Assembly: GCF_014127105.1 (NCBI RefSeq) | Contig: NZ_CP059902.1 | Coordinates: 3,006,001-3,070,000, forward strand | From: Devosia sp. MC521 | Lineage (GTDB): Bacteria; Pseudomonadota; Alphaproteobacteria; Rhizobiales; Devosiaceae | DNA length: 64,000 nt | Direction: 5' to 3' | Shown: positions 4,624-61,355 of the stretch, piece by piece | Layout of the letters: every line of letters starts with the position of its first letter | Position numbering within the stretch: the first letter of the stretch is position 1 | Notes under the pieces: generated by a model | Told to the model about the DNA's origin: nothing | What the model saw: the letters and a program-made list of their open reading frames with translations, nothing else | Database searches by the model: none | Program-made: the position numbers and the translations under genes

Positions 4624-4902
4624 ATGACCGTACAGATGCGTCCTCGCGTGAAGTACGTTATTGGCCCGGATGGCAGCCCGCTAACTATTGCGGATCTGCC
4701 CCCAGCCAATACACGACGGTGGGTTATCCGTCGGAAGGCCGAAGTTGTTGCTGCCGTTCGCGGTGGGCTGCTAAGCCTAGAAGAAGCATGTGAGCGTTAT
4801 ACGCTCAGCGTCGATGAGTTTCTCAATTGGCAGGCAGCCATCGACAAGCACGGCCTTGCGGGGCTGCGCACCACTTGGATTCAGCATTACCGAGAGGGAT
4901 AA
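4624..4902 (+). CDS. sciP: CtrA inhibitor SciP (DUF1153)
   Basis: Small helix-turn-helix protein that, in Caulobacter, binds CtrA and blocks activation of CtrA-dependent promoters. It has the DUF1153 signature through its whole 92 residues: VKYVIGPDGSPLTIADLPP, NTRRWVIRRKAEVVAAVRGG, LSLEEACERYTLSVDEFLNW. Position also fits: in Caulobacter sciP lies just ahead of the fliF operon, and here the next gene is fliF, preceded by a consensus CtrA box. A strong terminator follows, so sciP is a separate unit from fliF. Function is inferred from the family. Confidence 0.95.
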   Translation: MTVQMRPRVKYVIGPDGSPLTIADLPPANTRRWVIRRKAEVVAAVRGGLLSLEEACERYTLSVDEFLNWQAAIDKHGLAGLRTTWIQHYREG

Positions 4903-5121: not shown

Positions 5122-5138
5122 TTAACACCTTGTTAACC
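5122..5138 (+). promoter_or_regulatory. CtrA binding box upstream of fliF
   Basis: TTAA (5122-5125), seven bases, then TTAACC (5133-5138). This is an exact match to the full CtrA consensus TTAA-N7-TTAAC. It lies 71 bases before the likely fliF start, after the sciP terminator, so it should control the fliF-fliG-fliH-fliN-flbD operon. This matches the known CtrA control of the Caulobacter fliF operon. Confidence 0.8.
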
Positions 5139-5208
5139 ATCAAATAGGTAAATTTTGCCCAGCGGTTGGTGGGGGCTCCAGCGACCGAACGAGTCGCAGA
5201 GTGAACGC

Positions 5209-6837
5209 GTGGAAACCTTAACTACATTTATCAACCGGATCGGAATGGCCCGCCTTGCGGCAATGGCTCTCGTTGCGGTTCTCATGCTCGGATTTTTCGG
5301 GTTTCTTATCATGCGCGCCCAGACCCCAAATCTGGCGCCTCTCTATTCTGGATTAACGTTAGAAGATTCATCGGCAATCATTACCGAGCTGCAGACGCTC
5401 AACATGCCGCACGAAATTCGCGGCGACGGTGACACTATTCTGATCCCGCGCGATCAGATCACCACCGTCCGTATGCAGCTTGCTGGCGAAGGTCTGCCGA
5501 CCCGCGGCCAAGTGGGCTATGAAATTTTCGACCAGCAGTCGACGCTCGGCGCGACCAGCTTTGTCCAGAACATCAACAATGTTCGCGCCCTTGAAGGCGA
5601 ACTCGCACGGACCATCACGTCCCTGACCCGCATCAAAAGTGCGCGCGTGCATTTGGTTCTGCCAGAGCGTGAACTTTTCCGTCGCGAACGCAAGGATCCT
5701 TCAGCCTCCATCGTACTTTCGGTCCGCGGTCAACTTTCGAACAACGAAATTCGCGCCGTTCAGCACATGGTCGCCTCGGCCATTGAAGGCCTGAACCCAA
5801 CCCGCGTCTCCATCGTAGACGACCAAGGCAATCTGCTCGCCTCGGGCGCCGAAGGCGACGAAGGCAGCCTCGTCACCGCCAAGAATGAAGAGCGCACGCT
5901 TTCTTATGAAAACCGCATGCGCACCCGCATCGAAGACATGCTGGCAAACGTGGTTGGTGCAGGGCGCGCCCGTGTTGAAGTTGCAGCAGAGCTCGACTTC
6001 AATCGCCAGACCGTAACGCAAGAAACCTTCGATCCTGAAAGCCAAGTTGCACGTTCTATCCAGTCGCGCGAAAGCGAGACCCTGTCGAACGGCGCGAATG
6101 GTCAGGTCACGGTTGCAAACGAGCTTCCAGGCGCCAGCGAGAACGCTGCCAATGGCTTTGCCGAACAGGGCACCTCGCTCGAAGAGACCACCAACTACGA
6201 AATCAATCGTACGACCCAGGTAGCCACCACTGAGCCGGGTGCTGTTAAGCGCCTCTCCGTCGCTGTGGTTGTGGACGGTAGCTATGCCGACGATGGCAAC
6301 GGCAACCTCGCCTACAATCCCCGTAGCGCCGACGAAGTCAGCCAGATCTTGACCCTTGTTCGCTCAGCGGTCGGCTTCTCGGCAGAACGTGGCGACACTG
6401 TTGAAGTGGTCAACATGCAGTTTGCCGAACGCCCAGGCCTTGCTGGCGTAGGCACCGACAACACCGCAGGCCTTCTCGACTTCACCCGTGATGACCTGAT
6501 GAATGGCGCAGAAATGGCCGTCACCCTGCTCATCGCTCTGGCCCTCGTGTTCTTCGTGATGCGCCCTCTGCTCAAGAAGGTTCTGAGCCCAGAAACCGAA
6601 ACGCTTGCTTTGCCCGAAGCAGCTGAGCTCGGCAACCACGCCGTCCTCACTGCCGACGGACAGCTGCTCGACGAGCAGTTGCTCCAACCCCAGGACAAAA
6701 CCCCAGCGTGGGTGGCCAACGCCAAGTCCATGGGCGAAACCCAGCTGCAGACGCTCAAGACCGTCGGCACGCTCGTTGAAGAAAACCCCAAGCAGGCCGC
6801 ACTTATCGTGCGTGACTGGCTCGGCAGCGCGGCGTAA
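5209..6837 (+). CDS. fliF: flagellar MS-ring protein FliF
   Basis: Forms the MS ring in the inner membrane, the first flagellar structure to assemble. It has an N-terminal membrane helix ([20 protein letters not shown]), the YscJ/FliF domain ([20 protein letters not shown], then [20 protein letters not shown]), the periplasmic FliF C-domain, and a second helix near residue 440 ([20 protein letters not shown]) before the cytoplasmic tail that docks FliG. The GTG at 5209 ([10 protein letters not shown]) gives a normal N-terminus. The open frame extends to a TTG at 5155, but that region lies close to the expected transcription start after the CtrA box. First gene of the operon; fliG follows after five bases. 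Confidence 0.95.
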
Positions 6838-16409: not shown

Positions 16410-17117
16410 ATGCGGGTACTCCTTATTGAGGACGACAGCGCGACAGCGCAGAGCATCGAACTGATGCTGAAGTCCGAAAGTTTCAACGTCTACACCACCG
16501 ACCTCGGTGAGGAAGGCGTGGATCTTGGTAAACTCTACGACTACGACATCATTCTTCTGGACCTGAACCTGCCCGACATGAGCGGGTATGAGGTTTTGCG
16601 CACGCTTCGCGTCGCTAAGGTCCAGACGCCAATTCTGATCCTTTCGGGTCTGGCTGGCATCGAAGACAAGGTCCGCGGTCTCGGTTTTGGCGCCGACGAC
16701 TACATGACCAAGCCTTTCCACAAAGACGAACTCGTGGCCCGCATCCACGCCATTGTCCGTCGTTCCAAGGGCCATGCCCAGTCGGTCATCTCGACCGGTG
16801 ACCTGCTTGTTAACCTCGACACCAAGACCGTCGAAGTTCAGGGCCAGCGCGTTCACCTGACCGGCAAGGAATACCAGATGCTGGAACTCCTTTCCCTGCG
16901 TAAGGGCACGACCCTGACCAAGGAAATGTTCCTCAACCATCTGTACGGCGGCATGGACGAGCCCGAACTCAAGATCATCGACGTGTTCATCTGTAAGCTT
17001 CGCAAGAAGCTGTCGGTTGCCACCGGTGGTAAGAACTACATCGAAACCGTTTGGGGCCGTGGCTACGTGCTGCGCGAGCCCGATGAGGCAGACGTTTACA
17101 GCGAGAACGTCGCTTAA
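16410..17117 (+). CDS. ctrA: cell cycle response regulator CtrA
   Basis: Master regulator of the alphaproteobacterial cell cycle; when phosphorylated it activates flagellar and division genes and can block replication. Receiver domain with D7/D8-type acidic residues (LLIEDDS), phospho-acceptor D51 ([15 protein letters not shown]) and Lys in TKPF. The OmpR-type winged helix includes [20 protein letters not shown] and [13 protein letters not shown]. The start at 16410 is set by AAGGGGA seven bases upstream; a longer frame from 16338 is unlikely. The C-terminus is SENVA, so the last two residues are Val-Ala, not the Ala-Ala used by ClpXP in Caulobacter. Controlled from the region at 15973-16409. 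Confidence 0.98.
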
Positions 17118-27885: not shown

Positions 27886-28036
27886 AGCATTTAAGAGTGG
27901 CTTAGAAAGTATTTGTATTTTTGTTGAGCCCCAGCACTTTATAATTTTGCATAGTTAAGCGGTTAGGTTAAGAGCGCTTTAATGAGTTCTGCGCATATTG
28001 CAGGAGACAACTGGTCTCGTGGCAACCGAGGAACTT

Positions 28037-42168: not shown

Positions 42169-42249
42169 ATTGGTCATCCCTTCAATCAGTTGCGGCCATG
42201 TGTGAAGGGGTGTCAATGGTGAGGATGTCCGTAGAGGCACCCTTGCCAT

Positions 42250-42334
42250 CTCGAACTTCCTCCGCCAGCATGACCTGGTTCAGGTTCAATGGGTAACTCT
42301 CAGCTCCGGCAGCAACCGGAACACCCCAGCGAGA
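42250..42334 (-). ncRNA. TPP riboswitch (THI element)
   Basis: Read on the minus strand, all conserved blocks of the thiamine pyrophosphate aptamer are present: GGGGTG (42327-42322), GCTGAGAGT with CTGAGA, ACCCATTGAACCTGA, CAGGTCATGCTGGCGGAGGA. Stem P1 is TCTCG (42334-42330) with CGAGA (42254-42250). The expression platform would be the 80 bases before thiB, which includes AAGGG of its ribosome binding site. It should switch off thiBPQ when TPP is plentiful. Confidence 0.96.
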
Positions 42335-42365
42335 CGTCGTGGACCATATTGAGAGTGAGCCAAGA

Positions 42366-45782: not shown

Positions 45783-46298
45783 TTAGCGCTTAAAGGCGGA
45801 CTGCAGGCGCGTCATCTGGTCGACAATCCCATTGCTGTGGATTTCGAGAGCGTCCGGCACTGCGCCCCGCTCCAGCAGGTCCAGCTGCATAACGCGATCA
45901 AACAGCCGATCACCCTTATCGATAAAGTCACGCAAGGCGCCTGGAAGGTCGTCATAGCCGGGGCCACCGCGCTCTGAAGGGGTCGCCGAAAACTTCACCT
46001 TCTCTTTTTCAGAGCGTGCGTTTTCTCGGCTAATTTCACCTTCGTTGACTGCGCGCTGGAGCAAGAGCCACGAGGCCAACTGCATCAAGCGCGTGGTCAG
46101 GCGCATCGATTCTGTGGCGTACATAAAGCTCGCTTCCCGTGACAGGATACGGCTTTCAATGCGCCCATCTGTGTCGAGATAGGCAGCAACCTGTTCGATC
46201 AGTGTCATCCCTTCACGATAGAGCACGTCAAATCCAGCGGACGCGACGATACGCGGGCCAATGGAAACGGCAGATCGATCATTAAGGGATTCGGACAC
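45783..46298 (-). CDS. rcdA: CtrA degradation adaptor RcdA (DUF1465)
   Basis: In Caulobacter, RcdA helps deliver CtrA and other proteins to ClpXP, working with CpdR and PopA. This 171-residue protein matches DUF1465: FDVLYREGMTLIEQVAAYLD, ASFMYATESMRLTTRLMQLA, then WLLLQRAVNEGEISRENARS. The disordered C-terminus of family members is replaced here by a helical end (DQMTRLQSAFKR). It starts with GTG at 46298, with TAGGAG eight bases upstream. A GANTC site (GACTC, 46302-46306) overlaps the ribosome binding site and another (GATTC, 46288-46292) lies at the start of the gene. A CtrA box lies about 235 bases upstream. Confidence 0.92.
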   Translation of the reverse strand: MSESLNDRSAVSIGPRIVASAGFDVLYREGMTLIEQVAAYLDTDGRIESRILSREASFMYATESMRLTTRLMQLASWLLLQRAVNEGEISRENARSEKEKVKFSATPSERGGPGYDDLPGALRDFIDKGDRLFDRVMQLDLLERGAVPDALEIHSNGIVDQMTRLQSAFKR

Positions 46299-46412
46299 GA
46301 GGACTCCTAAGCGCTGAGCACTTATTTAATGTCTCACGCGCGCATGTGTCATCACAAGCTGAACGATATGCTTAAAATCCGGTCGATAGCGTTAGGATTT
46401 TGGACGCCCGGC

Positions 46413-46442
46413 AGAAAAAAAGAGCCGTATGAAAACGGCTCT
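46413..46442 (-). terminator. intrinsic terminator upstream of rcdA
   Basis: An 8-bp perfect stem (46421-46428 with 46435-46442), 6-base loop, and seven T on the minus strand. It prevents read-through from the DUF1192 gene or the candidate small RNA into rcdA, so rcdA must have its own promoter at 46299-46412. Confidence 0.88.
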
Positions 46443-46505
46443 CGAAGTTAACAGGGAGGCGTCAAACAGAGAGAAAATTCGCTCTGCAGAATCCAGAAGA
46501 ACTCT
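46414..46505 (-). ncRNA. candidate small RNA between DUF1192 gene and rcdA
   Basis: The 330-base gap between the DUF1192 gene and rcdA has no coding frame, but contains a CtrA box (46533-46548) and, about 90 bases downstream on the minus strand, an intrinsic terminator. AGAGCCGT (46442-46435), loop TTTCAT, ACGGCTCT (46428-46421), then TTTTTTT. The segment between has an unpaired CGCCTCCC, which is complementary to a ribosome binding site, and a GANTC site (46489-46493). The 5' end is a guess from the box position. A transcript that only ends the DUF1192 mRNA is the simpler alternative, but the 180-base distance makes this less likely. Confidence 0.4.
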
Positions 46506-46532
46506 GAATAACCAGACCTTAACGAGCAAAGA

Positions 46533-46548
46533 TTAATTGCCACTTAAC
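46533..46548 (-). promoter_or_regulatory. CtrA binding box upstream of rcdA
   Basis: TTAA (46533-46536), seven bases, TTAAC (46544-46548): an exact CtrA consensus. It is flanked by a perfect 9-bp inverted repeat, AACGAGCAA (46521-46529) and TTGCTCGTT (46568-46576). The nearest downstream elements on the minus strand are the candidate small RNA and rcdA. Confidence 0.7.
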
Positions 46549-46626
46549 AGGTTGAAATTGCTTAACCTTGCTCGTTGGTAAAGGGTTAAACTTGGCGTCA
46601 TTGGCCGCCTAAACACCTGCTAAAAA

Positions 46627-46812
46627 TCAAAATTTGAAGGCCGCTTCGGCAGCCGCGCGACTGTCCCCTTTGGCCAGGATTGCCGCTTTTAGCCGCCCGA
46701 TCTCACCTTCGAGCAAACGAATGCGCTCCTCCAGTTCGCTCACAGAGAGGCTATCGAGCACCATTCCAAGCTCGTGTGTCTTGGCCTTCTTGGCAAATTC
46801 CTCATCCATCAT
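46627..46812 (-). CDS. DUF1192 family small protein
   Basis: A 61-residue protein (MMDEEFAKKAKTHELGMVLD, then SLSVSELEERIRLLEGEIGR) that matches DUF1192, a short coiled-coil family widespread in alphaproteobacteria. The central SVSELEERI-x-x-LEGEI helix is the signature. Function is unknown. GGGTG lies upstream of ATG 46812. It is divergent from trcR with a 295-base gap in which only the trcR promoter and leader are recognised. Confidence 0.88.
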   Translation of the reverse strand: MMDEEFAKKAKTHELGMVLDSLSVSELEERIRLLEGEIGRLKAAILAKGDSRAAAEAAFKF

Positions 46813-61233: not shown

Positions 61234-61355
61234 CATTTTAGTAAACAAAAGCAAAATCAATAGGATTAACGCCCTCTTAAGGGCAGACCTTCATCGTATT
61301 CCCAAAGTGGCACACAGCGATTCGTGTGTCCTGCGACGGGAAGGCCAATAGGTTC

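Follow-up and report, generated by a model that had tools for sequence, protein, structure and literature searches.

A probable CtrA-controlled small RNA of the BjrC1505 family beside rcdA in Devosia sp. MC521

The 328 bases that separate rcdA, the gene of a CtrA proteolysis adaptor, from the DUF1192 gene (46299-46626; given as 330 bases in the first-pass annotation) raise the question of whether a CtrA box in this gap serves rcdA or a transcript of its own. The first-pass annotation had proposed a CtrA-controlled small RNA beside rcdA, and this proposal is well supported by comparison with other genomes, in which the box, the core of the RNA and the terminator are conserved. We consider it likely that the gap holds a CtrA-activated, trans-acting antisense RNA of ~93 nt that belongs to the BjrC1505 family. 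The more general statement, that a real sRNA gene lies here under CtrA influence, can be made with high confidence, and action through the covering of ribosome-binding sites is about an even bet. The segment had also been described as free of coding frames, which is nearly right: a mechanical ORF of 45 aa with a TTG start is present on the minus strand (46392-46529), without a Pfam match, and compensatory base-pair changes in relatives favor an RNA over a protein for this segment. The window, i.e. the whole 64-kb stretch of DNA analyzed, contains not only rcdA and the sRNA but also ctrA (16410-17087), a sciP-like gene and trcR, which starts at ~47108 on the plus strand beyond the DUF1192 gene. 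A TPP riboswitch is found at 42238-42338 on the minus strand of the window.

The RNA as such is not a novel one, as the segment corresponds to an existing Rfam entry. The minus strand from 46554 to 46415 matches the covariance model of RF02356 (BjrC1505, an alphaproteobacterial sRNA) over its full length (model positions 1-140) with 57.2 bits, where the curated cut-off is 50 bits. The match is single-copy in this genome, and the family core CTCTGTTTGACGCCTCCCTGTT and a G+C-rich terminator lie within 46471-46415 of the same strand. A search of 297 genomes of the order recovered the family in 245, and 30 of 289 genomes sampled across the class also had it; the named control genomes, a Caulobacter among them, gave no match. 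The family search missed at least one genome, whose sRNA locus surfaced in antisense orientation during a search for complements of the seed. One further locus (L127, G329:C110), which lies apart from both rcdA and DUF1192, carries a second, diverged sRNA copy together with a perfect CtrA box. The first description of BjrC1505 reportedly came from Bradyrhizobium and was backed by northern blotting. In the literature searched, outside of which most subscription journals fall, BjrC1505 is named only as a table entry, no function is given for it, and no paper connects it with either CtrA or rcdA. Although the family has thus been catalogued, its links to CtrA and to rcdA appear to be new. The CtrA box falls within the first ~25 positions of the RF02356 model, and the conserved 5' end of the family is therefore probably promoter DNA. 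Model positions 1 to ~45 (46510-46554) would in that case represent a CtrA-box promoter and not RNA, and we suggest that this 5' part be trimmed from the model.

The minus-strand segment folds better than 200 of 200 shuffled versions of itself (z = -4.0), and its structure is conserved well beyond the genus. In an alignment of 43 sequences outside Devosia, taken from many families, 98.2% of cells pair, and 11 of the 25 base pairs show changes on both sides against a shuffled mean of 2.3; sliding the pairing partners by 1-3 columns abolishes this covariation signal. Stem 1, stem 2 and the terminator each contribute three to four of the pairs changed on both sides (Table 1), while the weak hairpin around CCTCCC, with a single such pair, is less certain. 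Stem 2 escaped RNAalifold when used alone, probably owing to a shift of the Devosia version in the alignment, and the stems were therefore counted with Devosia left out. The strong minus-strand terminator with seven T, claimed to lie about 90 bases from the box, is present, with its stem at 46443-46420 followed by T7.

Between stem 2 and the terminator, the core TTTGACGCCTCCCTGT hardly varies across 58 sequences. It includes CGCCTCCC (46454-46461, minus strand), found where an exposed pairing segment had been predicted, and in the minimum-energy fold CCTCCC occupies the six-nucleotide loop of a hairpin. Absence of the terminator and CCTCCC from close relatives would have counted against the first-pass proposal, but all 30 Devosia loci that were inspected retain both of them as well as the box, as do loci from dozens of other families. 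Genomes of the Rhizobium and Sinorhizobium type have the core altered to TTTTCTCCCTGTTTTACC, while the box, stem 1 and terminator stay. The Rhizobiaceae with this altered core, a Sinorhizobium among them, retain the CTCCCTGTT motif, which points to the anti-Shine-Dalgarno-like CTCCCTGTT as the part that selection keeps. An exposed segment of the CCUCC type is conserved, taking the form CUCCCU in Rhizobiaceae.

Table 1. Features of the rcdA-DUF1192 interval (positions in the window)
Feature	Position	Strand	Basis or remark
DUF1192 gene, upstream neighbor	46627..46812	-	Pfam PF06698, E 5e-19; upstream across families
Extra upstream half site GGTTAAG	46561..46567	-	kept in nearly all Devosia loci
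CtrA box GTTAA-N7-TTAA (TTAA-N7-TTAAC on +)	46533..46548	-	proposed to activate the sRNA promoter
Putative -10 element (GTTAAGGT)	46516..46523	-	weak T/A-rich consensus
Predicted sRNA, ~93 nt, BjrC1505 family	46415..46508	-	RF02356 match, fold, covarying hairpins; 5' end inferred, ±~5
Stem-loop 1 region ATTCAGAGTTCTTCTGGAT	46491..46509	-	homologous to ATCCAG..CTGGAT; 3 pairs changed on both sides in relatives
Stem-loop 2 CAGAG..CTCTG	46467..46486	-	equivalent stem has 3 pairs changed on both sides
Near-invariant core TTTGACGCCTCCCTGTTAA	46448..46466	-	invariant columns in 58 sequences; present across families
Proposed seed, CCTCCC loop of a weak hairpin	46454-46459	-	within the core
Intrinsic terminator GAGAGCCGTTTTCATACGGCTC-T7	46415..46443	-	covarying stem, 4 pairs changed on both sides
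rcdA (CtrA proteolysis adaptor, DUF1465 family)	45783..46298	-	Pfam PF07323, E 5e-51

The exact TTAA-N7-TTAAC box that had been reported in the gap is present, reading TTAATTGCCACTTAAC on the plus strand and GTTAAGTGGCAATTAA on the minus strand. The 64 kb contain four matches to TTAAN7TTAAC, with one palindromic site counted twice, where shuffled sequence would give 0.13. Within the 54 bases before the RNA, the box (at most one mismatch) was found in 125 of 130 loci, where dinucleotide shuffling of these bases predicts ~12, and a more diverse subset yielded 75 of 80 loci against 6.4 expected. An independent set drawn from named genomes, including Bradyrhizobium diazoefficiens, Mesorhizobium, Brucella endophytica and Phyllobacterium, has the box in 115 of 117 loci. 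The distance from the box to the core is near-constant at ~79 bases. The locus has the TTAA-N7-TTAA promoter box, conserved among relatives, that would be expected of a member of the CtrA regulon. The 9-bp inverted repeat said to bracket the box (AACGAGCAA/TTGCTCGTT, 46521-46529 and 46568-46576) does exist, but it is confined to this strain among the Devosia loci examined and was rejected as a functional element.

Other sites of this type occur in the window. A palindromic CtrA box, TTAACACCTTGTTAAC, lies at 5122-5137 just upstream of fliF (5155-6837), which is adjoined by the sciP-like DUF1153 gene (4624-4902). Perfect TTAA-N7-TTAA boxes also precede a sigma-54 response regulator ORF (box 61266-61280, ORF at 61326) and a weakly matched outer-membrane beta-barrel ORF (box 27968-27982, ORF at 27998). 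As these boxes stand before plausible CtrA targets, sites of this kind are probably functional in the genome.

Across the 130 aligned loci, a weak T/A-rich consensus appears 25-28 bases past the start of the box and the first hairpin begins at about base 40. From this layout we infer that the sRNA starts near 46508 and is ~93 nt long. The spacing of box, T/A-rich element and hairpin fits what is expected of a response-regulator site overlapping the -35 region. Under the arrangement that we propose, transcription would run leftward from ~46508 to 46415 out of a promoter responsive to CtrA~P, with the box overlapping the -35 region and most likely activating the sRNA, and the intrinsic terminator would separate the sRNA from rcdA. 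The predicted fold of the transcript comprises two hairpins, the seed segment UUUGACGCCUCCCUGUUA and the terminator. CCUCCC and its flanks would most likely pair in trans with the ribosome-binding sites of mRNAs, and this pairing could lower the translation of targets while CtrA is active.

The direction of control is one point on which the sRNA might be read differently. CtrA can repress as well as activate, and the position of the box relative to the start site is deduced from the alignment, so that a real sRNA could have a promoter repressed by CtrA, or a box that acts elsewhere, and be made when CtrA is low. We judge this unlikely, given that the spacing of the box, the T/A-rich -10 and the first hairpin suits an activator site overlapping -35 and that no good sigma-70 -35/-10 pair was found in the promoter region. 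A processed 3' end of the DUF1192 mRNA, with the box irrelevant, would agree with the usual place of DUF1192 upstream on the same strand; however, the distance from DUF1192 to the RNA varies in Devosia from ~100 to >900 bases while the box-to-core distance stays at ~79, which makes such an origin highly improbable.

The neighborhood on the other side calls for closer weighing. In each of the first 60 loci rcdA is directly downstream on the same strand, with DUF1192 upstream in most, and the same holds for rcdA in nearly all of ~190 further loci (most of 79, and 109 of the 113 named loci with rcdA-side sequence). Such strict same-strand linkage, along with the absence, in this genome, of a further perfect CtrA box ahead of rcdA, would suit a CtrA-driven rcdA leader in which the terminator mostly stops transcription and permits regulated read-through (attenuation), the small RNA being a by-product. 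Against this, in several lineages, one including Sneathiella, the box and the DUF1192 neighbor still accompany the RNA where the next gene is not rcdA; in the exceptions with enough sequence, the translation of that gene reads as an unrelated, O-acetylhomoserine sulfhydrylase-like protein. The persistence of RNA and box without an adjoining rcdA indicates that the RNA is not merely an rcdA leader. Moreover, the rcdA of Rhizobiaceae has its own perfect CtrA box (TTAACCCTTTCTTAAG) past the sRNA terminator, a non-systematic look at the folds turned up no alternative antiterminator, and the conservation of the core far exceeds the needs of an attenuator. Weighed against the linkage, these observations leave attenuation of rcdA a rather poor prospect as the role of the segment.

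Published data on CtrA binding can be read along with this. In S. meliloti, ChIP-seq located CtrA upstream of rcdA and rcdA mRNA was unchanged on CtrA depletion (PMC4433202), as expected if the bound site serves another transcript. Since the rcdA of Rhizobiaceae has its own box, this signal is not assignable to the sRNA alone. Several start sites are recorded for rcdA in three agrobacterial lineages, with CtrA sites further upstream than in Caulobacter (PMC10469942). Both sets of data are compatible with a separate CtrA-driven transcript before rcdA, which is a matter of fit and not of proof.

For the targets of a trans-acting CtrA-activated sRNA, searches by sequence gave near-chance results. 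Besides the sRNA locus, near-full complements of the seed occur three times in the genome itself, compared to three for a reversed control pattern, and the best of them falls where an IclR-like gene begins. A pattern combining the seed complement with a start codon returned 21 matches in 61 genomes against 3 for its reversed form, mostly at unrelated genes; the pattern contains a ribosome-binding site, and this enrichment is therefore expected. Three of the 21 are Devosia matches in the leader of one ABC-transporter gene. In these three genomes ACAGGGAGGCG precedes a reading frame of 15 codons and a terminator-like hairpin, an arrangement that may represent an attenuator or possibly an sRNA target. 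The ctrA mRNA was rejected as a target, pairing with its start region and leader being neither strong nor conserved.

RcdA delivers CtrA to ClpXP, and an sRNA that is induced by CtrA and blocks translation of the rcdA mRNA would let CtrA protect itself in a positive loop across the Hyphomicrobiales. We regard such a loop as unlikely. In Bradyrhizobium, an uninterrupted run of 10 base pairs is possible between UUGACGCCUC and the GAGGCGUUAA that stands ahead of the rcdA start, as read off the sequences. The rcdA loci are related genes and the following counts are consequently not independent: of 18 Rhizobiaceae loci, 10 carry [AC]CAGGGA ahead of rcdA, compared to 1 of 42 other starts, and pairing with the rcdA start region over all 226 loci is stronger than background by just 0.4 standard deviations. 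The case for rcdA as an sRNA target may be called only suggestive.

If CtrA does control the RNA, a post-transcriptional layer of the alphaproteobacterial cell cycle would be present throughout the Hyphomicrobiales, including nitrogen-fixing symbionts and relatives of Brucella. A catalogued RNA of unknown function would gain a testable role, and a reason would be offered for the binding of CtrA upstream of rcdA in S. meliloti without a change in rcdA mRNA. The order would also possess a counterpart to the Caulobacter RNA CcnA.

Several known RNAs resemble the one described here to different degrees. BjrC1505 (RF02356) itself shares sequence and structure above the cut-off, the terminator, the near-invariant core and, in Bradyrhizobium loci, the linkage to rcdA and DUF1192; it differs in that the Rfam model begins upstream of the likely transcript and takes the CtrA box as RNA. 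EcpR1 and GspR of Sinorhizobium, likened by description only, are trans-acting sRNAs on cell-cycle regulators as well, but the promoter of EcpR1 is of the sigma-70 type, with stimulation by ppGpp, and GspR does not occur outside Sinorhizobium according to the report on them (PMC7143759). PmaR of Agrobacterium was considered as a homolog and rejected, as the paper describes a C-rich and not an anti-Shine-Dalgarno seed and places it only in Agrobacterium and one Rhizobium strain. The alphaR8 family (suhB/MmgR, SisA-D; RF00519) has in common a CUCCCU anti-Shine-Dalgarno segment between hairpin and terminator. The segment scores 25 bits with RF00519, below the cut-off of 41, and no match to that family was found in this genome; the family is reported beside an N-formylglutamate amidohydrolase gene, and SisA-D share no promoter motifs (PMC12559287). 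The alphaproteobacterial SisA-D repress many mRNAs by means of their anti-Shine-Dalgarno motif (PMC12559287). CcnA of Caulobacter, for which no clear S. meliloti homolog was reported, likewise combines a CtrA site in its promoter with a C-rich loop aimed at the ribosome-binding sites of cell-cycle mRNAs (PMC8959179). CcnA is encoded at the replication origin, whereas the sRNA here lies between DUF1192 and rcdA. The Caulobacter example demonstrates that ctrA and gcrA can be acted on by an RNA linked to CtrA (PMC8959179).
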